Positions 8,913 through 55,992 of a stretch of DNA of 64,000 nucleotides are shown in pieces. The stretch comes from Ottowia thiooxydans DSM 14619 (GTDB lineage Bacteria; Pseudomonadota; Gammaproteobacteria; Burkholderiales; Burkholderiaceae_C), in assembly GCF_000422885.1 (NCBI RefSeq), contig NZ_AUGX01000009.1, forward strand, positions 62,001 through 126,000. Reading direction: 5' to 3'. Both the position numbers and the translations under genes were made by a program. The stretch's first letter is position 1. Every line of letters begins with the position of its first letter. A model generated the notes under the pieces. It saw only the letters and a program-made list of their open reading frames with translations. It was not told the origin of the DNA and did not search any database.

Positions 8913-9647
8913 TCACCTCGGCTGCCGGATGCCCAAGCCTGGCACGTCGAGCTTGCGCTCGATGAATGCCATGAGCCTGACGACCAGCAGATTCACTGCC
9001 AGGTAGATCAACGTTGCTGCCGTGAACGCCTCGAAGATCTGGAAGGTGGTTTCCTGCATCGACCGCGTGGCGGCCATCAGCTCCACCACGGCGATGGTGA
9101 ATGCCACCGAAGTGTTCTTGATGACGTTCAGGAACTCATTGGTCAGTGCTGGCAATATCTTGCGCAAGCCCACCGGCAGCAACACATACCTATAGACTTC
9201 GAAGGTTCGAAGCCCCAAGGCGCGCGCTGCATAGCTCTGTCCCGTGGGGATGGCCTGAATACCGGCGCGCACTTGCTCCGCCACGCGGGCGGAGGTGTAA
9301 AAAGACAGGCACAGGATGGCTGCGACCACGTTGTACTTGTCCCAGGCCTTGATGGCGGATGCGGCACTTTCCGGCAGCAGATCGGGTGCCACATAGAACC
9401 ACAGGAACATCTGCACGATCAGCGGAATGCTGCGAAAAAATTCCACATACGCTTCGGCCAAGCGCGCGAAGACGCCGCCGGTGAAGGTGCGTGCGATGCC
9501 GACGATGGCGCCAGTCAACAGCGCCGCAGCCCAGGCGCTCAAGCCAACCACCAGCGTCCACTTCAAGCCCAGTAGAAGCGTGCCAAGGTAGCTTGAGACC
9601 CCATCCGACGAGGTGGCCCAGAGAATGGGCCAGTTCCACTGATACAT
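8913..9647 (-). CDS. Polar amino acid ABC transporter permease (GltJ-like)
   Basis: The product has 244 residues with hydrophobic segments typical of the HisMQ/GltJ permease family. The EAA loop reads A-A-R-A-L-G-L-R-T-F-E-V-Y-R-Y-V-L-L-P-V-G. The N-terminus 'Y-Q-W-N-W' followed by a long periplasmic or early membrane stretch is characteristic of GltJ-type glutamate/aspartate permeases. It is followed by a second permease (6-bp gap) and preceded by the binding protein (26-bp gap). Together they form an inner-membrane importer for a polar or acidic amino acid; specificity is set by the binding protein. Confidence 0.9.
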   Translation of the reverse strand: MYQWNWPILWATSSDGVSSYLGTLLLGLKWTLVVGLSAWAAALLTGAIVGIARTFTGGVFARLAEAYVEFFRSIPLIVQMFLWFYVAPDLLPESAASAIKAWDKYNVVAAILCLSFYTSARVAEQVRAGIQAIPTGQSYAARALGLRTFEVYRYVLLPVGLRKILPALTNEFLNVIKNTSVAFTIAVVELMAATRSMQETTFQIFEAFTAATLIYLAVNLLVVRLMAFIERKLDVPGLGIRQPR

Positions 9648-9673
9648 GGCGGTATGTCAGACGCCGTCGTGAT

Positions 9674-10579
9674 TTACTCGATACCTTTGTCGTTGGGATT
9701 GGCCAGGACGTTTTTAAGCGCCGCGGTCATCGGGAAATTGAGGTTCACATTTTTGGGCGGGATGGCCGACTCGAACCACTTGGCATAGAGCTTCTGGTAG
9801 TCGCCGGAGCGCACCAAAGCGGCCAGGGTCTTGTCCACCGCAGCCTTGAACTGCGGATCGTCCTTGCGCATTACCAATCCATAGGGTTCCACGCGCAGCG
9901 CCTCGTCAATCAGCTTGAAGTCACCGGGTTTGGCACTGTTGGCCACCAAGGATGCCAGCAGGATGTCGTCCATCACGAAAGCCTGTGCGCGGCCGGTGCT
10001 GAACATCAGGAACGATTGAGCATGGTCAGGGTTGGTGAGCTTCTTGGTCTCAAATTTTTTCTCCTGCTCGAACTTTGTCAGCAGGTTAATAGAGGTGGAA
10101 GCGGCCGTGAGTGCCACAGTCTTGTCGTTGAGGTCGGCAAACTTGTTGATGCCGCTATCACGGCGCACCACGGCGCGGATGCTGGAAACATAAAGCGTAT
10201 TGCTGAACGCCACCTGCTTTTGCCGCTCCACAGTGTTGGTTGCCGGGCCGCAGACGATGTCCACGCCCTGGTTCTGTAAAAGGGGGATCTGCGTGCTGAG
10301 GGTCACGGGGCGAAGCGCGACCTTCACTTCCTGCTTGAGATCGGCTTTGATCGTGTCGACCACGCGGGCGCAGATGTCCATGAAGAAGCCGATAGGCTTT
10401 CCATCGTCGGTAAGGTAGGAGAACGGCACAGACACATCGCGGTGACCAATGCGGATCTCGCCGGTTTCCTTGATGCGCTGCATGGTGCCGTTGAGCGCCT
10501 GGGCGTAGGCCGCACCAGTGGCGAGCAATGCGATTGAGGCGGTGCAAGCGCCCAGAACGAGGTGGCGTAGGTGGTGCAT
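9674..10579 (-). CDS. Amino acid ABC transporter substrate-binding protein (GltI-like)
   Basis: The product has 301 residues with a Sec signal peptide (about 1-26, ending A-Y-A). The mature part follows SBP family 3: I-R-I-G-H-R-D-V-S-V-P-F-S-Y near residue 45, then C-G-P-A-T-N-T-V-E-R around residue 110, both recalling glutamate/aspartate-binding GltI. It would capture a polar amino acid in the periplasm for the two permeases downstream. The ribosome site is CAGGAG about 7 bp before ATG. The 143-bp gap to the lysR gene upstream contains TTTTAG (10665-10670) and CTAAAA (10684-10689), a weak inverted repeat that could be a LysR site. The actual ligand is unknown; the oxidoreductase in the same operon may act on it. 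Confidence 0.9.
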   Translation of the reverse strand: MHHLRHLVLGACTASIALLATGAAYAQALNGTMQRIKETGEIRIGHRDVSVPFSYLTDDGKPIGFFMDICARVVDTIKADLKQEVKVALRPVTLSTQIPLLQNQGVDIVCGPATNTVERQKQVAFSNTLYVSSIRAVVRRDSGINKFADLNDKTVALTAASTSINLLTKFEQEKKFETKKLTNPDHAQSFLMFSTGRAQAFVMDDILLASLVANSAKPGDFKLIDEALRVEPYGLVMRKDDPQFKAAVDKTLAALVRSGDYQKLYAKWFESAIPPKNVNLNFPMTAALKNVLANPNDKGIE

Positions 10580-10722
10580 GGAAGGCTCCTGGGTTGACGC
10601 GAGCGATTATTGAACTGCGAACACCCTGGATTCTTCCGATTTAACTGTTCGTGAAAAGCGATATTTTTAGATTAAATTCATTCCTAAAAGTGATGTTTTT
10701 CTCGCCGCAGTGCCACCAACGA

Positions 10723-39390: not shown

Positions 39391-40320
39391 TCAAACTGCA
39401 GAACGCGCCAGCGGTTCGGCGGTCTTCACACCTTCAGTGATGCTGGTCCGATATTCAGAGGGTGTCTGTCCCATCTCTCGAGTGAAGAACCTGCTGAAGT
39501 AGGCAGGATCTTCATACCCCAGTTTGGAGGCGACTATTGCCACCGGCGCGGGGGTGTAGGCAAGCAAGCGCCGCGCCTCCAGGAGAACGCGATCATGCAA
39601 GATTTGGAGCGCCGACTTACCACCTACCTTGCGGCACGTCCGGCTCAAGTGGTCAGGTGTCACACCCAGGGTGCAAGCGTAAAAATCCATCGACCTATGT
39701 TCCACATGGTGCTTCTCAACCAACGTTGTGTATCGTTGCAGCAGAGTATCCCGCACGCCGCGTGAACTCTCGCGTTCGAACTGATCGCGGCGGTGACGCA
39801 AGGCAAAGACTGCAATCAGAGTGGCGAGCGCCAACAGGGCGTGCACTCGGCCCGGTGCACTCTCTACGAATTCGCGCGCAACCTGCTCAAACAAAGCGCC
39901 GACCGCGGCGTGATCGGCATCCATCGTCGTGATGACGAAAGAGGCGTCCAAGGTGCTGTCAACCAATTCGGAGCTGCCAAGCAGAGTGCGCAGCGTAGCT
40001 GTCGGAATGGTGACTTGATGCCCCACTGCGCCAGCGGTATATCGGAATCCGTGCACTGAACCCGGTGAAAGCACGATCAAGGTCGGACCAACCGCTTCGA
40101 ACGGACGCCCGTCAATAGTTCCCGTCACCGCGCCACGGCTGAGCAGTTGGAATTGGTGTAAACCCTCGTGGCGATGTGCGGGAATCGTCCAGTCCATCTC
40201 TTCGCCTCTCACGGCTACTGACTCGTAGTGCAGACAATCGTCAGGCTCGTCGTGACGGACTTCGCGGAAAGGAACGAGTAGTTGCGGCGCTGGCTTCATG
40301 GTGCCGATTGTCGTAGTCAT
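39391..40320 (-). CDS. AraC-family transcriptional regulator
   Basis: The product has 309 residues. The N-terminal cupin-like sensing domain carries H-R-H-E-G-L-H-Q-F-Q-L-L (near residue 50) and G-S-V-H-G-F. The C-terminal AraC DNA-binding domain has L-G-V-T-P-D-H-L-S-R-T-C-R and V-A-S-K-L-G-Y-E-D-P-A-Y-F-S-R-F-F-T-R-E-M-G-Q-T-P-S-E-Y-R. The layout resembles PobR-type regulators of aromatic catabolism. The ATG at 40320 is chosen; a TTG 15 bp earlier is the alternative. It faces the fused decarboxylase-dehydrogenase gene 83 bp away; TCCAAG (40331-40336) and CTTGGA (40357-40362) in that gap form a possible site. It likely activates that operon. Confidence 0.9.
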   Translation of the reverse strand: MTTTIGTMKPAPQLLVPFREVRHDEPDDCLHYESVAVRGEEMDWTIPAHRHEGLHQFQLLSRGAVTGTIDGRPFEAVGPTLIVLSPGSVHGFRYTAGAVGHQVTIPTATLRTLLGSSELVDSTLDASFVITTMDADHAAVGALFEQVAREFVESAPGRVHALLALATLIAVFALRHRRDQFERESSRGVRDTLLQRYTTLVEKHHVEHRSMDFYACTLGVTPDHLSRTCRKVGGKSALQILHDRVLLEARRLLAYTPAPVAIVASKLGYEDPAYFSRFFTREMGQTPSEYRTSITEGVKTAEPLARSAV

Positions 40321-40403
40321 GCCGGGAAAGTCCAAGAATACTCAGAAATGTCCATCGCTTGGAAAGGAGATGTAGTCGACGATTGGCGCCTCTGGCCTCA
40401 ACA

Positions 40404-43400
40404 ATGACTCGTAACCCTCTATCCCCAGTGGACACACTCTTTAAGCATTCTCAGGCGGCTCCGTTGCGCCTCAACGGAGCGCAGGCGCTAGTTCGCATCC
40501 TGCTGGCTGAAGGTGTGGACACGGTGTTCGGCATCGTCGGCGGCAAGCTCTCGCCGCTGTTCCATGCACTGAGCCAAGAGCCGAAAATCCGCTTCATCGG
40601 CGTGCGGCACGAAGCCGCGGGGCCGATGATGGCTGCCGCCGTCAATGCAGGCACCGGCAAGATGTCGGTGGCGGTGGGTGAGTTGGGCCCTGGCGGGCTC
40701 AATATGGCTTCCGGCCTGGGGGTTGCTTTCAACAACAACCTGCCGCTCCTGGCTATTACCACCAACCAGCACCGAGCATCCTCGTATCCGCACAGCGGCG
40801 TGTTCATGGATATGGACACGAAAGCCGTCACCACTCCCCTGACGAAATGGAATGCGGTGGTACAGGATGCGCGTCGCATGCCCGAGCTGGCGCGGCGTGC
40901 ATTCCGTGAAGCCTTGAGTGGCCGGCCCGGCCCGGTGCACCTGGACATCCCGCAGGACGTGCTGGGTGAAGTGCATGCCTTTGCGGCCGATGAGTTTGAT
41001 GTGGCGCCGGCGCGATACCGCGCCACGCTCCCGCCGCGTCCCGCCGATGCGGCGGTCGAGGCCGCCGTGGCGCTCCTGCGCCATGCCAAGCGTCCGCTCG
41101 TGGTCGGCGGCGGTGGGGTAGTGGTGGCAGGCGCTGCCGCTGCGCTGCGCGAACTGGCTCAGCGCCTGAACGCCCCTGTGGTTCCCACGCAGATGGCTTT
41201 GGGCGTCGTGCCCTCCGACAGCCCTCACTTCATCGGCCACGGCGGGATCATCGCGGGAGAATCCGTCAAGCATGCCTTCGAACGTGCCGACGTCATCATC
41301 AGCATTGGTTGCCGATGGTCCTCGTGGATGTGGGACGAGCGCGGTGCACTCGCACGGCGCCACCACAAGCTCATCAACGTCAATATAGACCCTTCTGCGC
41401 TGGGCGGGGCAGCCATGCATGATGTGGCGATGCAGGCGGACGCCGGCGAGGCCTTGCGCGATATTCTCGCCGCACTCGGCGATGATGCACGGGCCGACGG
41501 CACCTGGCTCGCTGAAGTCCGCGCCGTTCGCGCCCGCTACGAACGAAAGCTGGCCATTATGGCCACCGATACGGAAGAGACGATGCATCCCGCCGCTTTG
41601 GCGAAAGCCATAGCCGATGCATTGCCTAAGGACTCACTCGCTGTTTACGACGGCGGCCACACCACTTTCTGGAGCAATGACTTCACACCGGTCCATGAGG
41701 TGCGCACGCGCTTCCACGAACCGGGCATGAGCCATCTGGGCTACGGACTGCCGGCGGCCATTGCGCTCAAGTCGCAGCGCCCAGAAAAGACCGTGGTGAA
41801 CATCACGGGCGACGGCGCCTTCGGCTTCACGCTCAATGAGCTGGACACCGCACGCCGCTATCGGCTGCAGGTTATCACCATCATCCACAACAACGCTGCC
41901 TGGGGCGTGATCCGCATGGGCCAGAAGCTGGGCCTGGATTTCGAGATGGGCACCGCGCTGGAGGATACCGACTACGCGGCCATTGCACGCGGCTTCGGTT
42001 GTCACGGGGAAGTGGTCACGCGCGCTGGTGACATAGCCGGTGCACTGCAACGCGCCATCGCTTCCGGGTTGCCAGCAGTGCTGGACTGCCGCACCAAATT
42101 CCTACCCCATCCTTCGGTGGGGCAATTCGTCAGTATGAACAAGTATGGCTTTCAGTCGCTCACGCGCGTGCAAGCACACAAGGAGAACACCATGAACGAT
42201 ATCCGCATGCTCATCGGGGGCGAGAAGGCCACTTCAGCTTCTGGCAAGACCTTCGAGCGGCGCAACCCGCTGGACGGTACAGTCGCCACACGCGCACCTG
42301 CCGCCACGGTCCAGGATGCCGTGACCGCGGTCGATGCAGCCGCCAAGGCTTTCCCCGCATGGTCAGCGATGGGCCCTGGTGCGCGCCGAGCCCTGCTGCA
42401 AAAGGCGGCTATGACGCTGGAAGCGAACGCACCCAAGTTCATCGAGGCGATGGCTGCCGAGACAGGCGCCGCTGGGCCCTGGGCCGGTTTTAACGTGCAT
42501 TTGGCCGCGGGCATGCTGCAGGAAGCAGCCGCGATCACGACGCAGATCGGCGGCGAGGTCATCCCCTCTGATGTGCCAGGCAGTCTGGCAATGGGCCTGC
42601 GCGTGCCCGCCGGTGTGGTGCTGGGCATCGCACCGTGGAATGCACCTGTGATTCTGGGTGTGCGTGCGATCGCTACGCCGCTGGCGTGCGGCAACACGGT
42701 CGTTCTTAAAGGCTCGGAGCTTTGCCCTGCCACGCACGGCCTCATCATCGAAGCGCTTCAGGAAGCAGGCTTGCCGCCCGGCGTGGTGAACTTCGTGACC
42801 AATGCGCCGGCAGACGCTGCAGAAATCGTCGAAGCGATGGTCAGCCATCCTGCCGTGCGCCGCGTCAACTTTACCGGTTCGACCAAGGTCGGAAGGATCA
42901 TCGCGCAGACCTGCGCCAAATACTTGAAGCCAGCCATTCTGGAACTGGGCGGCAAGGCTCCAATGGTGGTGCTGGACGATGCAGACCTCGACGCGGCGGT
43001 CGATGGCGCGGTGTTCGGCGCTTTCGCGAACTCGGGCCAGATTTGCATGTCAACTGAGCGTCTCGTGGTGGACGACAAGGTAGCCGACACCTTTGTCGCC
43101 AAGCTGGCTGCTCGCGCTGTGGGCCTGCCGCTGGGTGACCCGCGCAAAGGTCCCGTCGTACTGGGCTCCGTTGTGGATATGAGTACTGTTGAGCGTTGCA
43201 ACGCAATGATCGACGATGCGCTGGCCAAGGGCGCCACGCTCGTGTGCGGCGGAAAAAGCGACAACACGCTCATGCCGGCCACGGTGCTCGACCATGTGAC
43301 GAGCGATATGAAGATCTATCACGACGAAAGCTTTGGTCCGGTCAAGCCCGTCGTGCGTGTCCATGGTGTTGAGGCCGCTATCGCCTGTGCCAACGACAAC

Positions 43401-43643
43401 CCATATGGCCTGTCCGCCGCAGTGTTTGGCCGCGATGTGGCCCGCGCCATGCAGGTGGCGCAGCGCATCGAGTCAGGCATATGCCACGTGAACGGCCCCA
43501 CGGTGCACGACGAAGCGCAGATGCCATTCGGCGGAACGAAGGACTCCGGTTACGGCCGGTTCGGCGGCAAGGCGGGCATTGAGGCCTTCACCGAACTGCG
43601 CTGGATCACCGTGCAGACGACCCCGCGTCACTACCCATTTTGA
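40404..43643 (+). CDS. Fused ThDP-dependent decarboxylase - aldehyde dehydrogenase
   Basis: The product has 1079 residues. Residues 1 to about 585 form a ThDP enzyme of the acetolactate synthase/benzoylformate decarboxylase type: catalytic Glu70 in V-R-H-E-A-A, and the ThDP/Mg motif G-D-G (469-471) with N-N at 496-497. From Met597 to the end is a complete 483-residue aldehyde dehydrogenase of the vanillin/salicylaldehyde dehydrogenase group: P-W-N-A-P-V-I, E-L-G-G-K-A-P, and catalytic Cys881 (Cys285 of the module) in S-G-Q-I-C-M. The join codes for K-E-N-T-M, and the DNA there is AAGGAG, 6 bp, ATG: an intact ribosome site. It may make both the fusion and a free dehydrogenase. Probable reaction: a 2-oxo acid to its aldehyde, then to the acid, with the aldehyde handed over within one protein. 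A Bug and a GlcG-like gene follow. Confidence 0.85.
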   Translation: MTRNPLSPVDTLFKHSQAAPLRLNGAQALVRILLAEGVDTVFGIVGGKLSPLFHALSQEPKIRFIGVRHEAAGPMMAAAVNAGTGKMSVAVGELGPGGLNMASGLGVAFNNNLPLLAITTNQHRASSYPHSGVFMDMDTKAVTTPLTKWNAVVQDARRMPELARRAFREALSGRPGPVHLDIPQDVLGEVHAFAADEFDVAPARYRATLPPRPADAAVEAAVALLRHAKRPLVVGGGGVVVAGAAAALRELAQRLNAPVVPTQMALGVVPSDSPHFIGHGGIIAGESVKHAFERADVIISIGCRWSSWMWDERGALARRHHKLINVNIDPSALGGAAMHDVAMQADAGEALRDILAALGDDARADGTWLAEVRAVRARYERKLAIMATDTEETMHPAALAKAIADALPKDSLAVYDGGHTTFWSNDFTPVHEVRTRFHEPGMSHLGYGLPAAIALKSQRPEKTVVNITGDGAFGFTLNELDTARRYRLQVITIIHNNAAWGVIRMGQKLGLDFEMGTALEDTDYAAIARGFGCHGEVVTRAGDIAGALQRAIASGLPAVLDCRTKFLPHPSVGQFVSMNKYGFQSLTRVQAHKENTMNDIRMLIGGEKATSASGKTFERRNPLDGTVATRAPAATVQDAVTAVDAAAKAFPAWSAMGPGARRALLQKAAMTLEANAPKFIEAMAAETGAAGPWAGFNVHLAAGMLQEAAAITTQIGGEVIPSDVPGSLAMGLRVPAGVVLGIAPWNAPVILGVRAIATPLACGNTVVLKGSELCPATHGLIIEALQEAGLPPGVVNFVTNAPADAAEIVEAMVSHPAVRRVNFTGSTKVGRIIAQTCAKYLKPAILELGGKAPMVVLDDADLDAAVDGAVFGAFANSGQICMSTERLVVDDKVADTFVAKLAARAVGLPLGDPRKGPVVLGSVVDMSTVERCNAMIDDALAKGATLVCGGKSDNTLMPATVLDHVTSDMKIYHDESFGPVKPVVRVHGVEAAIACANDNPYGLSAAVFGRDVARAMQVAQRIESGICHVNGPTVHDEAQMPFGGTKDSGYGRFGGKAGIEAFTELRWITVQTTPRHYPF

Positions 43644-43667: not shown

Positions 43668-44645
43668 ATGCAACGTAGAGACTTACTTCGCGCAGCAGCT
43701 GCCGCCGGCCTCGTCGGAGGCGGGCTTCCCGCTTTCGGACAACCATCAGGCAACATCGTCGTTTGGTCGGGCTTCCCCTCTGGAGGCTTGGGCGACCAGG
43801 TGAGCCGCCCGCTAATGGATCAGTTGCGAGGAAAATTCCCTCAAAACCTGATCTATGACTCCAAGCCAGGTGCAGCTGGCCGCATCGCGGCGGAGTTCGT
43901 CAAGCGCAGTGCCCCTGATGGGAACAACCTCTTCCAGGCTCCAGCCGGTCTCCTGACATTGCATCCGCACGTCTTCAAGAAGTTGCCCTACGACCCATTG
44001 GTGGATTTCACGGCTGTGGCTGGCCTCTGCAATTTCACATACTCTTTTACGGCTGGCCCTGGCCTGCCGGCGCACATCAAGACAGTGCAAGAGTATCTCG
44101 CCTGGGCTAAGGCCAATCCCGGTCAAGCCAACTACGGCGTTCCCTCCATCGGGACATCGCTGCACCTCTCGGGCATGCTGCTTTCGCGGGCGTCCGGCGT
44201 TGAGCTTCGTGCCATTCCTTACAAAGGGGGCGGGCCGTTGTTGACAGATCTGCTTGGGGGGCAAGTCCCAGTGAGCTTTAATGTGGTGAGCGAAGTCCTG
44301 CCGCATGTGCGCTCTGGCAAGCTGCGCACCCTGGCCGTCACGAGTCCCAACCGCTGGAAGGGAATGACGGACATCCCTACGTTGGTGGAGCTGGGCTATA
44401 AAGACATTTCTTTTGTCGAGTGGCTGGGTTGGTTCGCCCCTGCAGGAGCGCCTGCTGCCAAGGTGGCGTCTTTGAACGCCGCAGTGAATTCTCAACTGAC
44501 ATCGCCCGCGATGGCAGAAGTCTTTGAGAAGAACGCGCTGCAGCCACTGGGCGGCTCCCCAGCGCAGCTCACTGCGCTGGTCAAGAGTGATTACGACCAC
44601 TACATGAATGTGGTGAAAGCCACGGGCTTCACGCCGGAAGAATGA
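43668..44645 (+). CDS. Bug/TctC-family periplasmic solute-binding protein, Tat-type signal
   Basis: The product has 325 residues. The N-terminus Q-R-R-D-L-L-R-A-A-A-A-A-G-L and following hydrophobic stretch form a Tat-type signal ending A-F-G-Q. The mature pattern diverges from the norm at the start (I-V-V-W-S-G-F-P-S-G-G-L-G-D) but has K-P-G-A-A-G-R, A-P-D-G-N-N and I-P-Y-K-G-G-G. The ribosome site is TAAAGGAG. It sits 24 bp after the decarboxylase-dehydrogenase fusion and overlaps the GlcG/HbpS gene by 4 bp, so its ligand is probably the 2-oxo acid or a precursor, possibly aromatic. Confidence 0.91.
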   Translation: MQRRDLLRAAAAAGLVGGGLPAFGQPSGNIVVWSGFPSGGLGDQVSRPLMDQLRGKFPQNLIYDSKPGAAGRIAAEFVKRSAPDGNNLFQAPAGLLTLHPHVFKKLPYDPLVDFTAVAGLCNFTYSFTAGPGLPAHIKTVQEYLAWAKANPGQANYGVPSIGTSLHLSGMLLSRASGVELRAIPYKGGGPLLTDLLGGQVPVSFNVVSEVLPHVRSGKLRTLAVTSPNRWKGMTDIPTLVELGYKDISFVEWLGWFAPAGAPAAKVASLNAAVNSQLTSPAMAEVFEKNALQPLGGSPAQLTALVKSDYDHYMNVVKATGFTPEE

Positions 44646-46198: not shown

Positions 46199-47239
46199 TT
46201 GAGCTACATCAAAACATCATCAGGTTGCAACTGCGGCATCGATACCCACGCACACGTGGTGCCGGAAAACTTTCCGGCCTACATCGGCGCGGAGGTGCCT
46301 GCCGACTGGCCCTCGATGGCTGCAGCCCAGGCATGCCATCGCAGCGTGATGATCTCGGGCAAGGTCTACCGCACTGTGTCTGATAAATGTTGGGACACAG
46401 GTAAACGCCTGGTCGATCTTGAGTCGATGGGCATCGCGCTACAAGTCGTGTCTCCCATGCCCGAGTTGCTCTCCTATTGGATGAAGCCGGCGGCCGCACA
46501 GCAATTGCTCCGATTTCTGAATGATCAGATCGCAGGTATGGTCAATGAGAGTGGAGGCCGGATCGCAGGTTTAGGGGCCGTCCCGCTACAGGACATCGAA
46601 TTGGCAATGCGTGAGTTGGAATACTGCGTCAAGGTGCTGGGCTTCGCTGGTATCGAAATCGGCAGCAATATCAATGGTGTGCCGATCGGTGATCCCAGGT
46701 TCCACCCGTTCTTTGCGGCCTGCCAGGAGACGGGCGCCGCCGTCTTTGTGCACGCTATTCGGCCCGCTGGAATGGAGCGACTGGTTGGACCTGCTCCACT
46801 TCAGCAGGTTCTTGCTTATCCCGGGGATGTGGGCCTTGCCGCCGCATCGGTCATCACGAGCAATCTGATGGAGACGCATCCCAAGTTACGCCTTGCGTTC
46901 AGTCATGGCGGTGGAACGCTCGCGATGCTGCTTCCTCGTCTGCAGCAGGGCTGGCAGGTCTTCCCAGCGCTTGCAGAGAGCATCAAGGCGGCGCCGGTGG
47001 AGCAGGCCCGCAAGTTCTTCTACGACACGCTGGTGTTCGACACACCAACGTTGCGTCACCTGGTGGACACGTTCGGTGCTTCCCAGCTAATGGTTGGCAC
47101 CGACTATCCGTTCAACTTCCACGACCGTAAGCCCATCGAGCGCATCACCGAAGCTGGATTTGACGAAGGTACCGCTATGAACTTGATCAAACACAACGCC
47201 GAGCGGTTCCTCGCTCGCGCACTGGAGACCATGCAATGA
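46199..47239 (+). CDS. Amidohydrolase-family protein (ACMSD/gamma-resorcylate decarboxylase-like)
   Basis: The product has 346 residues and begins with TTG, supported by GGAG 7 bp upstream. Metal-binding features of the ACMSD branch are present: D-T-H-A-H-V-V-P near residue 14 (H-x-H), F-V-H-A-I-R in the middle, F-S-H-G-G-G near residue 240, and G-T-D-Y-P-F near residue 300 with the conserved Asp. Members of this branch remove CO2 without oxidation from aromatic acids or muconate semialdehydes. It overlaps the VOC dioxygenase gene by 4 bp. Beside a ring-cleavage-type VOC protein, decarboxylation of a ring-cleavage product or a carboxylated phenol is the likely role. Confidence 0.85.
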   Translation: MSYIKTSSGCNCGIDTHAHVVPENFPAYIGAEVPADWPSMAAAQACHRSVMISGKVYRTVSDKCWDTGKRLVDLESMGIALQVVSPMPELLSYWMKPAAAQQLLRFLNDQIAGMVNESGGRIAGLGAVPLQDIELAMRELEYCVKVLGFAGIEIGSNINGVPIGDPRFHPFFAACQETGAAVFVHAIRPAGMERLVGPAPLQQVLAYPGDVGLAAASVITSNLMETHPKLRLAFSHGGGTLAMLLPRLQQGWQVFPALAESIKAAPVEQARKFFYDTLVFDTPTLRHLVDTFGASQLMVGTDYPFNFHDRKPIERITEAGFDEGTAMNLIKHNAERFLARALETMQ

Positions 47240-48135
47240 CATCCCCCTGGATAGAAGGGTTACGCAGCGTGGCGTTGAACGTTCCCGACCTCGCGAAGGC
47301 AGAGCAGTTCTACGTCCAAGTCTGGCACTTGGAGGTGGCGCACCGCAAGGACAACGCCATCTACCTTCGTGGAAGCGGCGGAGATGACCATCTTTTAGCT
47401 CTGTACGTGGGTGGCGAGGTGCCGCAAGTGAGACAGGTGACGCTTCGGGCGCGGAGCGCTGAGGCACTGCTGAAGGTTGCGGAGGCGACCGTGCGCGCGG
47501 GTGGCAGCATCGTGACGCCTGTTGGGCCACTGACGAAGAACCCCGCCGGCGGCACCGGCGTCACGGTACGCGACCCGCACGGACGTATCTTCCAAGTGGT
47601 ACACGGAGATGCGCGCCATGAACCGCAGCCTCCGGTCCAAGACAGACCCATTCGCTTGACACATGCAGTTCTGAATAGTCACGCAGTGGATGAAACAAAG
47701 CAATTCATGGAGCAGGCATTCGGCTTTCGGCTTGCAGACCGTACAGGAATCATGGCGTTCATGAACTGCGACCGTGATCATCACACCATCGCTATCGGCA
47801 TCACCGATAACGATGCGCTCAATCACATCGCATTTTTGATGCCCGACATGGAATCCGTGATGCGCGGGGGCGGGCGCATGAAGGATGCGGGATTTCCGAT
47901 TCAGTGGGGGCCTGGCCGCCATGGTCCTGGCAACAACCTTTTCAACTACTTCATCGATCCGTTCGGGATCGTCATCGAATACACAGCCGATGTAGAGCAG
48001 ATCGACGAATCCTACGTGGCACGCGGACCGTCCGATTGGAAATGGCCAGAAGGTCGTTATGACCAGTGGGGCATTTCACAGCCTCCCGGCGCACCGCTCA
48101 AAGAGGCTCAGCGCCGCGTCTTCTTCGTTTCCTGA
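47236..48135 (+). CDS. Two-domain VOC protein, type I extradiol dioxygenase-like
   Basis: The product has 299 residues arranged as two VOC modules, the layout of catechol 2,3-dioxygenases and 2,3-dihydroxybiphenyl dioxygenases. The C-terminal module has the metal ligands: His in R-L-T-H-A-V-L (about residue 142), His in A-L-N-H-I-A-F (about 196) and Glu in V-I-E-Y-T (about 250). The conserved Tyr near the final Glu is also present. It would cleave a catechol-type ring next to the hydroxyls in a cytoplasmic Fe(II) reaction. The gene overlaps the amidohydrolase by 4 bp and is followed by an FAH-family hydrolase and an MhpA-like monooxygenase. Confidence 0.85.
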   Translation: MTSPWIEGLRSVALNVPDLAKAEQFYVQVWHLEVAHRKDNAIYLRGSGGDDHLLALYVGGEVPQVRQVTLRARSAEALLKVAEATVRAGGSIVTPVGPLTKNPAGGTGVTVRDPHGRIFQVVHGDARHEPQPPVQDRPIRLTHAVLNSHAVDETKQFMEQAFGFRLADRTGIMAFMNCDRDHHTIAIGITDNDALNHIAFLMPDMESVMRGGGRMKDAGFPIQWGPGRHGPGNNLFNYFIDPFGIVIEYTADVEQIDESYVARGPSDWKWPEGRYDQWGISQPPGAPLKEAQRRVFFVS

Positions 48136-48150
48136 TTGAGAAAACACTCT

Positions 48151-49017
48151 ATGAAATTCACAACCTATCTTCGCCAAGGGGCACCGCGCCTGGCTGTCGT
48201 TGACGGCGCCAACATCGTTGACTTGAACGATGCGCAGCCTAACGTTCCCGCAGACATTCGCCTGGCGCTGAAGTCCGGCATCGACCTGGATGCGGCGGCG
48301 CGTACTGCCATTGCGGGCAAGGCTGCACGCCAACTTCTAGCGGACGTCAAGCTAGCGCCACTCGTGCCCGAGCCTGGCAAGATCGTGTGCCTCGGTCTCA
48401 ACTACTTCGACCACGCCAAGGAAGGGGGGCGTGACAAGCCTGAATACCCCTGGTTCTTTTTCCGTGGCGCGTCTTCTCAAGTCGCGCACGGCGAAGCGGG
48501 CTGGCTGCCACGGGTGTCGACCCGCTTCGACTACGAGGCCGAACTGGCCGTCGTGATTGGCAAGACCGTGCCGCGTCACACGAAGGAAGCTGACGCCCTG
48601 CAATACGTGTTCGGCTACAGCTGCTACAACGACATGAGCGTGCGCGACTACCAGAAACGCACCCCACAGTGGACCATTGGCAAGAACTTCGACCGCACCG
48701 GCGGCTTTGGCCCTACTCTGGTGACGGCGGATGAACTGCCTGCCGGTGCGGTCGGCTTGCGCATACAGAGTCGCTTGAACGGCCAGGTGATGCAGGACGC
48801 CAACACGAGCGACATGATCTTCACCGTTGCCGAGACCATCGCCCTATTGGCGGAGGTGCTGACACTCGAGCCTGGAGACGTCATTGTGATGGGCACACCC
48901 GCGGGGGTGGGGCAGGCGCGCACGCCGCCGGTTTGGATGAAAGCCGGTGACACGATCGAGATAGAGATCGACCGCGTGGGTCTTTTGTCGAACCCGATTG
49001 TTGCCGAGCCAGCATGA
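48151..49017 (+). CDS. Fumarylacetoacetate hydrolase-family protein
   Basis: The product has 288 residues. The N-terminal domain of short FAH proteins is followed by the core: V-C-L-G-L-N-Y-F-D-H-A, Y-E-A-E-L-A-V-V-I-G-K (metal Glu ligands) and Y-N-D-M-S-V-R-D-Y-Q (Asp ligand), then G-T-P-A-G-V-G near residue 255. The family includes 2-oxopent-4-enoate hydratases, oxaloacetate or 4-oxalocrotonate decarboxylases and 2-oxohepta-3-ene-1,7-dioate hydratases. The ATG at 48151 is used; TTG 48136 is possible. It overlaps the monooxygenase gene by 4 bp. In this set it likely hydrates or decarboxylates the meta-cleavage product. Confidence 0.9.
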   Translation: MKFTTYLRQGAPRLAVVDGANIVDLNDAQPNVPADIRLALKSGIDLDAAARTAIAGKAARQLLADVKLAPLVPEPGKIVCLGLNYFDHAKEGGRDKPEYPWFFFRGASSQVAHGEAGWLPRVSTRFDYEAELAVVIGKTVPRHTKEADALQYVFGYSCYNDMSVRDYQKRTPQWTIGKNFDRTGGFGPTLVTADELPAGAVGLRIQSRLNGQVMQDANTSDMIFTVAETIALLAEVLTLEPGDVIVMGTPAGVGQARTPPVWMKAGDTIEIEIDRVGLLSNPIVAEPA

Positions 49018-50603
49018 GCGAGGAGAGCATCTACGACGTTGCGATCGTCGGCTATGGGCCGGCGGGCGCGGTCGCAGCCGGACTGCTGGGTCAACAAGGC
49101 TTGAACGTGTACGTGTGCGAGAAGCTGCAGAAGGTGTACGCGATTCCGCGTGCCATCGCGATGGACCACGAGATCCTGCGTGTGTTGCAGCAGCTGGGAG
49201 TGGTGGATGCCGTTGCGCCGTTCATGGAACCGTTCACGGACTCCGAGTATTTCGGCGTTGATGGGCAACTGATCAAACGGATGACCATGCTCGGCGCACC
49301 TTATCCGCAGGGATATACACCCTCCAATGTGTTCACTCAGCCGCCGGTGGAGGAGGCATTGCGTGCCCGCGTGAAGCAGTTGCCCAATGTGCACGTGGAC
49401 CTGGGTGTCGAGATGATGCGTGTTCACCCTGATGTCGACGGTGTGACGCTGAGCATCGATGAAAGAGGCCAATCGAAGCTTGTTCGCGCCAAGTATCTGA
49501 TCGCATGCGATGGGGGCTCCAGCCCTGTGCGGACGCAGTTGAACATGCCACTGGAAGACCTGGACTTCGACGAGCCCTGGCTGGTGGTAGACGTTCTGGT
49601 TAACGAGCAGGGGCTGGCCAAACTTCCTACGACGAGCGTGCAGTATTGCGAGCCGGAACGGCCGTGCACGATGGTCATCGGGCCTAAGAACCATCGGCGG
49701 TGGGAGATATCGCTCAAGCCAGACGAAGACCCCATGGAAGTGCAAAGGCCCGAGGAGACCTGGAAACTGCTCTCGCGTTGGCTTACTCCGCAAGATGGCG
49801 AGTTGTGGCGTCAGTCGAGTTACCGTTTCCACGCGCTGGTAGCTTCGGAGTGGCGCCAAGGTCGCGTGTTCCTCGCAGGAGATGCGGCGCATATGCAGCC
49901 CCCCTTCCTTGGCCAGGGGATGTGCCAGGGAATCCGTGACGTCACCAATCTCAGCTGGAAGCTGGGTTCAGTGCTCCGAGGCGAGGTGCAGGGTGATGTA
50001 GCTAGGGAGCTGCTGGATAGTTATGGCATCGAGCGCAAGGCGCATGTACGCGAGCTCACCAGCCGCATCAAGCACGTAGGTGAAGTGATCTGCGAACGAG
50101 ACCCTATCAAGGCGCGCGAGCGCGACGCGAAACTCCTGGCCGAGTGTGGCGGGGTGGTGAAAGACACTCCGCGACAGGACATCATTCCAAAGTTGGAGAC
50201 TGGATTGCTGTCGCAAGAGGCATCGACTGCCCGCGGCGCTTTGTTTCCGCAACCTTGGATCAAGCAAGAGAGCGCTCCGCAACGGATGGATGTACTTGCC
50301 GGTAACGGATGGCGACTCGTGATGGCTTCGAACGTGGAGGTTTCCGAAGCGCTCAAAGGATTGCCGAAAGTATCAGTCATCTCGCTCCAGACGCCTGCGT
50401 ACTCGGAGATGGAGGGAGTGGCAGCCGCCTGGTTCCGACGGCACGAGTGCGTCGCGGCATTGGTGAGGCCTGATAACTATGTGTTCGGCACCGCGGCCAC
50501 TACGGCCGAGTTAGCCAACTTGCTTGCGGAGTGGCGAATGCGTATGAGCAACTCAAGGGAGACCGATCGCAACGCAATGCAAGCCGGGCATTCGGTCCAC
50601 TAA
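49014..50603 (+). CDS. FAD-dependent aromatic monooxygenase (MhpA-like)
   Basis: The product has 529 residues, the size of 3-(3-hydroxyphenyl)propionate hydroxylases. The N-terminal FAD motif V-G-Y-G-P-A-G-A-V-A-A-G is at about 12-23, followed by V-C-E-K and P-R-A-I-A-M-D-H-E, nearly the MhpA wording P-R-A-I-G-I-D-D-E. The second FAD motif G-D-A-A-H-M-Q-P-P-F-L-G-Q-G-M is near residue 287, and D-G motif C-D-G-G-S-S-P-V-R near 163. It uses NAD(P)H and O2 to add a hydroxyl to a phenolic ring, giving a catechol for the VOC dioxygenase. It overlaps the FAH gene by 4 bp. A Bug gene follows 95 bp later. Confidence 0.9.
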   Translation: MSEESIYDVAIVGYGPAGAVAAGLLGQQGLNVYVCEKLQKVYAIPRAIAMDHEILRVLQQLGVVDAVAPFMEPFTDSEYFGVDGQLIKRMTMLGAPYPQGYTPSNVFTQPPVEEALRARVKQLPNVHVDLGVEMMRVHPDVDGVTLSIDERGQSKLVRAKYLIACDGGSSPVRTQLNMPLEDLDFDEPWLVVDVLVNEQGLAKLPTTSVQYCEPERPCTMVIGPKNHRRWEISLKPDEDPMEVQRPEETWKLLSRWLTPQDGELWRQSSYRFHALVASEWRQGRVFLAGDAAHMQPPFLGQGMCQGIRDVTNLSWKLGSVLRGEVQGDVARELLDSYGIERKAHVRELTSRIKHVGEVICERDPIKARERDAKLLAECGGVVKDTPRQDIIPKLETGLLSQEASTARGALFPQPWIKQESAPQRMDVLAGNGWRLVMASNVEVSEALKGLPKVSVISLQTPAYSEMEGVAAAWFRRHECVAALVRPDNYVFGTAATTAELANLLAEWRMRMSNSRETDRNAMQAGHSVH

Positions 50604-53609: not shown

Positions 53610-53972
53610 ATGACGCAGCAGCTGCCCCCGCAGGGCTTGAAAATCTCTGATTCCGACGTGTTCGATCTGAACATGTCCTGGCGCGGTCTCCGCATCAACA
53701 CGATGTGCAACGCGCTTTCTGACCCTACCAACCGCGAAGCCTGCAAGGCTGACGAAGAAGCTTTTATGGCACGCTTCGAGCTGACCGAGGCCGAGAAACA
53801 ACTGGTGCGTGCACGCGATTTCAGCGGATTGCTCGCCGTCGGTGGAAACATCTACTTTTTACTTAAGCTGGGGGTGGTCACGGGCAACGGTCTCTACAAG
53901 ATGGGCGCTTCTATGCGTGGGGAAACACACGAGCAGTTTCTGGCCACACGTAACGACAGCGGAGCGGTGTAA
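53610..53972 (+). CDS. ligA: Protocatechuate 4,5-dioxygenase alpha subunit
   Basis: The product has 120 residues and is all-helical. The sequence follows the LigA small-subunit pattern: C-N-A-L-S-D-P-T-N-R-E-A-C-K-A-D-E-E-A-F, then L-T-E-A-E-K-Q-L-V-R-A-R-D, and G-G-N-I-Y-F-L-L-K-L near residue 80. LigA covers the active site of the beta subunit and is needed for activity. Its stop overlaps the beta-subunit start by one base, and a MarR regulator is divergent upstream. Together with LigB it opens protocatechuate to 4-carboxy-2-hydroxymuconate semialdehyde. Confidence 0.93.
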   Translation: MTQQLPPQGLKISDSDVFDLNMSWRGLRINTMCNALSDPTNREACKADEEAFMARFELTEAEKQLVRARDFSGLLAVGGNIYFLLKLGVVTGNGLYKMGASMRGETHEQFLATRNDSGAV

Positions 53973-54814
53973 TGGGTGGAAAGATCATCGCCGGCATCGG
54001 CACTTCACATGTTCCCTCCATCGGCGGCGCCTACGACCGTGGCCGCGCTCAGACACCGGCCTGGAAGCCACTCTTTGATGCCTACGTGCCGGTTCGCGAA
54101 TGGCTCCAGGAGATCAAACCTGACGTAGCCATCATGGTCTACAACGACCACGGGGCCGATTTCTTCTTCGACAAGTATCCAACCTTTGCCGTGGGATGCG
54201 CGGACCAGTACGCCATTGCCGATGAAGGTTTCGGCACGCGGCCCTTGCCGGCCATCCCGGGCGATCTGGCGTTCTCTCAGCACCTATGCCGCTCGTTGGT
54301 GTACGACGAGTTCGACATCACGGTGTGCCAGAAGATGGCAGTGGAGCACGGATTTTTGGTGCCTATGCACCTGTGCTTCGATCACACAGATACTTGGCCC
54401 GTGGCCTCGGTACCGATCGCGGTCAACGTGTTGCAGCACCCACTGCCTACCGCGCGCCGGTGTTTCCGCTTAGGGCGGTCAATCCGCCGTGCGGTGGAAA
54501 GCTATGAGCGCGACTTGCGCGTGGCCATCATAGGCACCGGCGGTATGTCGCACCAGCTCACCGGCAAGCATTTTGGTGACATGCATCGCGATAACGACCT
54601 GGACTTTCTCAATCGCATCGAGCATGACCCCGAGAGTCTGACCGAGCTCACACACCAGACTCTGATGGAGAAGTTTGGCGTGGAAGGTATCGAGTTGATT
54701 ATGTGGCTGGTGATGCGCGGAGCGCTCTCTGGCAGCGTGAAGCAAATGCACCGAAATTACTACGCGCCCATGACTACCGGCATGGGCCTCATCACACTAG
54801 AGGAGGCCATTTGA
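53972..54814 (+). CDS. ligB: Protocatechuate 4,5-dioxygenase beta (catalytic) subunit
   Basis: The product has 280 residues. Iron ligands match LigB: His13 in G-T-S-H-V-P and His60 in Y-N-D-H-G-A-D-F, with the Glu near residue 239 in G-I-E-L-I-M-W. The catalytic His lies in G-G-M-S-H-Q-L near residue 194. This type II extradiol enzyme uses Fe(II) and O2 to cleave protocatechuate between C4 and C5. The genes ligA and pobA overlap it by one base each, so the three are tightly coupled. The later pathway genes (ligC, ligI, ligJ, ligK) are not in the window and must lie elsewhere. Confidence 0.94.
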
Positions 54815-55992
54815 TGCGGACACAAGTTGGCATTATTGGCGCAGGACCGGCTGGGCTGATGCTCTCGCACATGTTGCACCTCGAAGGCATTGAATCCGTG
54901 ATCATTGAGCGTGCGGCGCAAGAACACGTGCAAAACCGTTTACGTGCCGGCGTGCTGGAGCAAGGAACAGTGGAGATGATGCGGTCTCTAGGTTTGGGTG
55001 AGCGCATTGGCCAGTTCGGGCTGGAGCAGCACAGCATTGATTTCCGCTTTGGGCGCGAGTCGCACCCAATCAACTTTCACGAGGCTACGGGAGGGCGCAG
55101 CGCTTGGGTGTATCCGCAGCACGAGGTGGTGAAAGACCTGATGGCCGCGCGCACTGGGGCTGGGGCGCAGATGTTGTTCGAAACCCCAGTGACCGCGATA
55201 GAGGGTATCGGCGGGCCGCGCCCGGTGGTGCGCTTCGAGAAAAATGGTGTACCCGGCGAACTGCACTGCGACTTCGTGGTCGGTTGCGACGGCTTCCGCG
55301 GCATTAGCCGCCACGCCATTCCTTCGCAGGCGGGCGAGGTGCACGATCGTATCTACCCCTTTGGCTGGCTCGGCATCCTGGCAGAGGCCGCGCCCGCCAC
55401 GAACGAAGTGACCTGGGGCTGCCACGAAGACGGCTTTGCAATGATGAGCATCCGCACGAAGTCGATCACGCGCCTTTACCTGCAGTGCGCACCGGATGAG
55501 AGTCCTGATAACTGGTCCGACGACCGCATCTGGTCGGAGCTGCACAAACGACTCGACGTACCGGGTTTGCCGCCGATCAATGAAGGCCGCATCACGCAGA
55601 AAGGCGTGACGGTCATGCGAAGCTTTCTGTTCGAACCCATGCAGCACGGGCGCTTGTTCCTGGCCGGCGACGCCGCACACATCGTGCCGCCCACCGGCGC
55701 CAAAGGCCTGAACTCGGCGATGGCAGACGTGAAGGTGCTAGCCCGTGCGCTCGAACAGCACTACAGGCGCGGTGTCAACGGGCTGCTAGAGCGTTACTCG
55801 CAGACATGCCTGAAGCGCATGTGGCTGGTGCAGCGGTTCTCTGCCGGCCTGTGCACGATGGTGCACAGCTTCGAAGGAGACAGCTCATTCATCAAGCGCC
55901 TGCAGCGCGCCGACCTGGAATACATGACGGGCACCCATGCCGGCCGTCTGCAGTTTTCCGAAAATTTCACTGGTCTTCCCATCGACGCCTGA
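54814..55992 (+). CDS. pobA: 4-hydroxybenzoate 3-monooxygenase
   Basis: The product has 392 residues, matching PobA (about 394). The FAD motif [10 protein letters not shown] is at about 6-15, then I-E-R, then [12 protein letters not shown] (substrate-side region near 39-50). V-G-C-D-G-F-R-G is near residue 157 and [16 protein letters not shown] near 285. The enzyme uses NADPH and O2 to convert 4-hydroxybenzoate to protocatechuate, the substrate of LigAB just upstream. The ribosome site AGAGGAGG lies within ligB. A Bug gene follows 12 bp later and may bind 4-hydroxybenzoate or a related acid. Confidence 0.95.

Follow-up and report, generated by a model that had tools for sequence, protein, structure and literature searches.

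In Ottowia thiooxydans DSM 14619, one long gene encodes both a thiamine diphosphate (ThDP)-dependent enzyme and an aldehyde dehydrogenase (ALDH). Is this a genuine fusion, how did it arise, and what might the joined enzymes do? The gene lies in a stretch of 64,000 nucleotides from contig NZ_AUGX01000009.1, which we will call the window. It is a single open frame on the + strand (40404-43643, with its ATG at 40404 and its stop codon at 43641-43643), and its translation of 1079 amino acids contains zero internal stops. The frame is free of stops from 40317 onwards and ATG 40404 is the assigned start; in five related loci described below (L014, L016, L019, L020, and L021), the residue that is aligned first corresponds to this ATG.

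Our interpretation, to which we give a probability of roughly 55%, is that the gene encodes a fused 2-oxo-acid decarboxylase/aryl-aldehyde dehydrogenase, that it originated by loss of a stop codon, that it belongs to a conserved cluster for the catabolism of aromatic compounds, and that the joint helps to handle the aldehyde.

The fused gene and its relatives

In the protein, Pfam places TPP_enzyme_N, TPP_enzyme_M, and TPP_enzyme_C at residues 24-562 and Aldedh at residues 612-1068, with every score far above its cut-off. The ThDP half (residues 1-588; 40404..42167, + strand) ends with a conserved LTR. It is followed by a linker of 8 codons (VQAHKENT; 24 nt at 42168..42191, +) and by the ALDH half (residues 597-1079, or 483 amino acids; 42192..43643, +), which begins with an internal ATG at 42192-42194. 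Within the linker is AAGGAG (42180..42185, +; duplex energy of -8.5), presumably the Shine-Dalgarno-like site of the one-time ALDH gene, and AACACC separates it from the ATG. The linker is probably the former intergenic spacer, including the ribosome-binding site.

A sequence-only reading of the window had described the gene as an in-frame fusion of a complete ThDP enzyme with a complete 483-residue ALDH. The unbroken translation, the Pfam domains, and 11 further fused loci bear this out, and the landmarks that it named (Glu70, within RHE; GDG at 469-471; NN at 496-497; and AAGGAG, 6 bp, and ATG at 42180-42194) are all correctly placed. In an alignment of the 12 fusions (the window and the 11 other loci), these residues of the ThDP half are invariant, and so are N746, E847, and C881, which we take to be the catalytic residues of the ALDH half. 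Purifying selection acts on both halves, judging from the comparison of the window with its closest relative, L014 (dN/dS of 0.048/0.81 for the ThDP half and 0.042/0.96 for the ALDH half). The kept catalytic residues and the selection suggest that both halves are functional. The window's genome contains no other close copy of either half: the best other ALDH is 37% identical (among 41 matches) and the best other ThDP enzyme is 34% identical.

To find related loci, we scanned a collection of one genome per species (84,980 species) with short peptides of the fusion, which could overlook remote fusions, and we classed the resulting 57 loci by their stop-to-stop frames. Eleven are unbroken fusions, 75-93% identical to the window's; four have adjacent genes on the same strand (L044, L048, L058, and L061, which we will call split); and in 42 the ThDP gene is not directly followed by an orthologous ALDH. 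The 42 include partial contigs, such as L052, which is too short to be classed, as it ends within the ThDP gene. Four of the 11 fused loci are from records that are not metagenome-assembled genomes (MAGs): Caenimonas sedimenti HX-9-20, Hydrogenophaga sp. 2FB, Hydrogenophaga flava NBRC 102514, and Ramlibacter paludis XY19. The remaining seven fused loci come from records that carry the MAG label. We also searched whole-genome samples, which partly overlap. Counting the window's own genome each time, 2 of 29 genomes from the genus and 3 of 399 from the family have an unbroken match across the two halves; there were none beyond the own genome in the samples from the order (399 genomes) or the phylum (398 genomes). 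Among plasmid records, 251 had a match to the fusion, and in none did one place cover 80% of the query, so there is no fusion there.

The comparison of fused with two-gene homologs that the sequence-only reading had proposed thus returned both states, and the fusion is common to several relatives within a group of bacteria from soil and water. The sequence-only reading had also raised a sequencing error near the joint, and an assembly or sequencing error could in principle conceal a stop codon or a frameshift there. Because 11 loci from other assemblies share the unbroken frame, including those of the four named strains, the fusion is not due to such an error or to chance; we found nothing in favor of this explanation and give it practically no weight.

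Ramlibacter terrae (L057) does show signs of disruption. Its ThDP gene (9001-10712) is spread over two frames, and the genome's ALDH match ends at residue 309 of 483. This pattern reflects frameshifts or decay, in a record that is titled a complete genome.

Origin of the fusion and a possible internal start site

We counted the spacer from the conserved L(T/S)R at the end of the ThDP part to the start of the ALDH. In the fused loci, it is variable in sequence and has 24 nt in 10 of 12 cases, 30 nt in L023, and 39 nt in L050. The split loci have 30 nt with an in-frame TGA (L044), 39 nt with an in-frame TGA (L058), 41 nt with overlapping genes (L048), or 70 nt and out of frame (L061). The fused L050 and the split L058 are fully supported sisters on the tree of ThDP parts, which are 78% identical; both spacers are 39 nt, the GAG of the ribosome site is in the same codon, and the TGA of L058 is a sense codon in L050. 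Since these sisters have equal spacers and differ by TGA versus a sense codon, we think that the fusion arose by stop loss in place, as the sequence-only reading had proposed. Two co-transcribed genes would have lost the in-frame stop between them, which would have turned the old spacer into the short and variable linker.

How often did this happen? We built the ThDP tree from 52 of the 58 loci, omitting L052, L057, L063, L064, L067, and L070 (partial, frameshifted, or remote). On this tree, the fused state requires at least 5 changes, 4 of which are forced by well-supported branches. A tree restricted to the 16 paired loci puts 11 of the 12 fused rows in one group (support of 95/96) and L050 apart. 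The shortest story would be two fusions followed by losses of the ALDH part, but the trees cannot distinguish gain from loss. For the ALDH tree, we left out duplicates (L001, L009, L071, and L072), partial sequences (L012 and L013), and matches of under 440 residues. The 12 fused loci and three of the four adjacent loci cluster together (81/86, moderate support) and are separate from ALDHs in other contexts (99/95). On the ALDH tree, L023 and L029 join part of the window's clade, which they do not on the ThDP tree. This had made us suspect recombination between halves of different fusions, but we do not claim it. In approximately unbiased tests, the ThDP data reject the ALDH-tree grouping (p-AU = 6.6e-07) and the ALDH data reject neither ThDP-tree grouping (p-AU = 0.205 and 0.353); the tests are unequal in power.

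The fusion might also be nearly neutral: a stop was lost between genes that were always co-expressed, and the enzymes remained unchanged, with no channelling. The frequent changes of state on the ThDP tree, the four split pairs, and the short, unconserved linker are what this would predict. On the other hand, the frame is unbroken in all 12 fused loci, of which the 11 others are 75-93% identical to the window, and the linkers vary in length by whole codons only. We consider near-neutrality a credible alternative, at somewhat below even odds.

The sequence-only reading also held that the old ribosome site has been kept, and that initiation there could yield the free dehydrogenase. Indeed, none of the 32 other in-frame ATGs of the window's gene has an SD-like site as strong as this one. 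The GAG of this site is retained in 11 of the 12 fusions, and the mean energy across the 12 is -6.8, versus -5.6 for synonymous recodings (pooled P = 0.028, over related rows and uncorrected for kinship). But in L014, the site is weak (-3.7) and is matched or beaten by 8 of 30 other ATGs, it is absent in L034 (-1.0), and TTG replaces the internal ATG in L015 and L016. The site is strong in the window itself, while across the 12 fusions it exceeds synonymous recodings only weakly. If it were used, the gene would yield both the 115-kDa fusion and, from ATG 42192, a free ALDH of ~51 kDa (masses as estimated in the sequence-only reading). The lack of another ALDH above 37% identity in the window's genome would fit with this, and TTG is still a start codon; the modest P value from non-independent rows and the weak or missing sites tell against it. 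Internal initiation is possible, but we think that a second product is rather unlikely.

Separately, nine loci (L073, L075, L076, L077, L078, L081, L086, L100, and L101) match the fusion over its full length, except that a single TGA separates the halves. For the first seven of these, a gene for MdlC, or benzoylformate decarboxylase, precedes the ALDH gene in the same frame; L100 and L101 share the match pattern. In-frame MdlC-ALDH pairs could fuse by the stop-loss route.

Predicted activities of the two halves

The ALDH half appears to belong to the vanillin/salicylaldehyde dehydrogenase group. Its closest solved relatives are vanillin dehydrogenase 9ihb (641 bits), salicylaldehyde dehydrogenase 6qhn (640 bits), and NahF (4jz6; 564 bits), with the next at 336 bits; E values to these vanillin/salicylaldehyde dehydrogenases range from 2.5e-168 to 9e-192. 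These are stand-alone chains of 467-500 residues that match the C-terminal half of the fusion, and they align over nearly their full length, with the Cys, Glu, and Asn kept. None of the best 25 of 45 NCBIfam matches passes its cut-off (HpaE is the highest, at 347 bits versus 638), and these 25 include no models for vanillin or salicylaldehyde dehydrogenase, so the NCBIfam scores leave membership in that group unaddressed.

The ThDP half has the fold of acetolactate synthase and pyruvate oxidase: it contains the TPP_enzyme N, M, and C domains, the Glu of the Glu-ThDP pair, and GDG...NN. Its best solved matches are acetolactate synthase (6lpi), BbmA (8x3x), and glyoxylate carboligase (7ct6), which resemble it over most of its length but at just 207-235 bits; pyruvate oxidase is also among the nearest solved relatives. 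Judging by title, no paper on BbmA was among the literature matches listed. No NCBIfam cut-off was passed among the best 25 of 52 matches. In particular, the acetolactate synthase model TIGR00118 scores 336.8 bits, short of its curated equivalog cut-off of 538.35.

We rejected the benzoylformate decarboxylase (MdlC/BzfA) family. It does not appear among the best 25 of 52 NCBIfam matches or the best 60 of 149 matches in the PDB, and the MdlC proteins found at related loci are only 23-30% identical to the ThDP half, mostly in pieces. When aligned with four MdlC proteins, the window has GGK, GEL, and WMW opposite GST, LHS, and YHV. This puts Gly47, Glu93, and Met309 in place of the catalytic Ser, His, and His, which we take to be Ser26, His70, and His281 of MdlC. 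The subfamily also has motifs of its own, GCRxSSW and DGGHT(T/S)FWSND. From these residues, we conclude that the ThDP half lies outside the benzoylformate decarboxylase family and is a member of a subfamily without an assigned function.

Gene neighborhood, proposed route, and known systems

The genes that recur around the ThDP gene encode an AraC-family regulator, a solute-binding protein, an HbpS-like protein, an ACMSD-like protein, an extradiol dioxygenase, a FAH hydrolase, and an MhpA-type hydroxylase. In the window, the regulator (39391..40335, - strand) is divergent from the fusion and scores 154 bits with the NCBIfam model for HpaA, under the cut-off of 275; homologs are present at 10 of the 11 fused and all four adjacent loci. 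Just 24 nt past the fusion's stop codon is an open reading frame for a solute-binding protein (43668..44645, +), presumably of the Bug (tripartite tricarboxylate) type, with homologs (at least 40% identity) at 11/11 fused and 4/4 adjacent loci. Next is an HbpS-like protein (PF03928; 44642..45070, +), with homologs at 6 of the 11 fused, 3 of the 4 adjacent, and 24 of the 42 other loci. The ACMSD-like amidohydrolase (PF04909; 46199..47239, +) has 2-amino-3-carboxymuconate-6-semialdehyde decarboxylase as its best solved match (E = 8e-54), and it is probably a decarboxylase of a ring-fission product. It is followed by an extradiol-dioxygenase-like protein of the glyoxalase fold (47236..48135, +; matches to 3b59 and to homoprotocatechuate dioxygenases, with the models for HpaD and catechol 2,3-dioxygenase below their cut-offs), a FAH-family hydrolase (48136..49017, +; NCBIfam search), and an MhpA-type FAD-dependent aromatic hydroxylase (49014..50603, +; NF004829, 493.5 bits, over the cut-off of 390). 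In 26 of the 57 loci, the fetched DNA contains all three of the dioxygenase, the FAH hydrolase, and the hydroxylase (at least 38-40% identity). A Rieske oxygenase with a VanA_C domain (PF00355 and PF19112; 51677..52750, +) is outside the conserved core, with no homolog of at least 50% identity in the fetched DNA of the 57 loci.

At a greater distance, Roseinatronobacter (L068) has separate genes for the ThDP enzyme, MhpA, FAH, the dioxygenase, and the ALDH in one run. Two Bacillaceae (L065 and L069) have a remote relative of the ThDP gene near a distant ALDH (37% identity); L069 also has a TRAP transporter, a LysR gene, and, near its ALDH and ThDP genes, a glucarate dehydratase (343-1692; over its cut-off), which we did not use as evidence about the substrate. 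Elsewhere in the window, upstream of the cluster, are an arylmalonate-decarboxylase-like gene (PF17645; 38219-39013, -) and a gene of the Asp/Glu racemase family (PF01177; 33711-34559, +), surrounded by several solute-binding genes, again presumably of the Bug type. At 53972-55992 (+), open reading frames resemble, by eye, a LigB-type dioxygenase and 4-hydroxybenzoate 3-monooxygenase (PobA-like).

The recurring neighbors suggest a likely route from an aryl 2-oxo acid to ring cleavage and hydrolysis. We propose that decarboxylation by the ThDP half turns an aromatic 2-oxo acid, with a ring-substituted benzoylformate (arylglyoxylate) as the likeliest candidate, into an aromatic aldehyde, which the ALDH half would oxidize with NAD(P)+ to a benzoate. 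The neighboring enzymes (the hydroxylase, the extradiol dioxygenase, the ACMSD-like decarboxylase, and the FAH hydrolase) would degrade this benzoate further, via a dihydroxybenzoate, ring cleavage, decarboxylation, and hydrolysis, in that presumed order. The joint probably provides a fixed 1:1 supply of the two activities and holds the toxic aldehyde close to its oxidant. Direct passing of a reactive aldehyde between the halves, as the sequence-only reading had suggested, is chemically sensible.

In favor of this proposal are the 12 unbroken fusions with their invariant catalytic residues, the selection on both halves, the sister pair L050 and L058, the closeness of the ALDH half to vanillin and salicylaldehyde dehydrogenases, the gene arrangements in L068 and the two Bacillaceae, and the separate pairs of enzymes known from other bacteria (below). 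Other points limit it. Its weakest link is the ThDP reaction: since the Ser, His, and His of benzoylformate decarboxylase are missing and no NCBIfam cut-off was passed among the best 25 of 52 matches, the ThDP half could use another 2-oxo acid, or catalyze a carboligation or lyase reaction. Also, the two genes need not be physically joined, since 42 of the 57 loci (some of them partial) show no ALDH right behind the ThDP gene. It counts for the proposal, on the other hand, that most such genomes have the ALDH elsewhere: of 12 that we searched, 10 have an orthologue (74-81% identity; the match in L057 is partial), while L017 and L024, which are MAGs, lack one at a threshold of E = 1e-140. It also speaks for the proposal that, in the family sample, ALDH orthologues (77-82% identity) are preceded by an MdlC-type gene at 10 of 25 loci, but this count is biased: at 7 of the 10, the search tool had linked an in-frame MdlC to the ALDH, which gave these loci their high rank; among the remaining 18 loci, only 3 have MdlC within the 1.5-kb flank. 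The MdlC of L078 is similar to the solved benzoylformate decarboxylases 6qsi and 1bfd (E = 1e-125 and 3e-123), and the other nine are 60-74% identical to it.

These doubts lead to an alternative in which the ThDP half acts on another 2-oxo acid, such as a ring-fission product, or catalyzes a C-C lyase or carboligation reaction, with the released aldehyde then oxidized by the ALDH. The nearest solved relatives, the missing residues, the subfamily's own motifs, and the resemblance of the downstream genes to ring-cleavage enzymes would all be consistent with this. But the ALDH half belongs with the aryl-aldehyde dehydrogenases, and true benzoylformate decarboxylases adjoin some of its orthologues, so we view this alternative as doubtful, if well short of far-fetched. 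On the side of aryl 2-oxo acid decarboxylation, a bolder and similarly tentative idea is that the ThDP half founds a new family of arylglyoxylate decarboxylases, distinct from the MdlC family, which would be widespread in aromatic catabolism in Burkholderiales. It would probably have been welded to its ALDH twice, giving one chain that converts aryl 2-oxo acids to benzoates without releasing the aldehyde.

Aromatic aldehydes are toxic intermediates of lignin-type catabolism. A natural decarboxylase-dehydrogenase fusion, with split and unlinked relatives as controls, makes the effect of joining on the free aldehyde directly testable, and it directs attention to a ThDP subfamily that lacks an assigned function and lies in a conserved catabolic neighborhood. 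At the level of titles and the beginnings of abstracts, we found no published natural fusion of a ThDP decarboxylase with an ALDH; most of the subscription literature is outside of that search.

There are known systems that link the same kinds of enzymes. The 4-hydroxybenzoylformate cluster of Rhodococcus jostii RHA1, a different taxon, contains a decarboxylase and the vanillin dehydrogenase vdh, and so pairs the same two activities as we propose for the window; the portion of that report that we draw on describes separate genes or enzymes and mentions no fusion (PMC9811514). In Pseudomonas sp. LLC-1, the benzoylformate decarboxylase BzfA and the benzaldehyde/vanillin dehydrogenase BzfC are encoded by separate genes (PMC7760541). 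BzfA/BzfC and MdlC/MdlD of the mandelate pathway differ from the window in that they are two unfused genes, and in that the decarboxylase is of the MdlC family, which does not include the window's ThDP half. What the window shares with both of these systems is the pairing of a ThDP decarboxylase, here a predicted one, with an aryl aldehyde dehydrogenase (PMC7760541).

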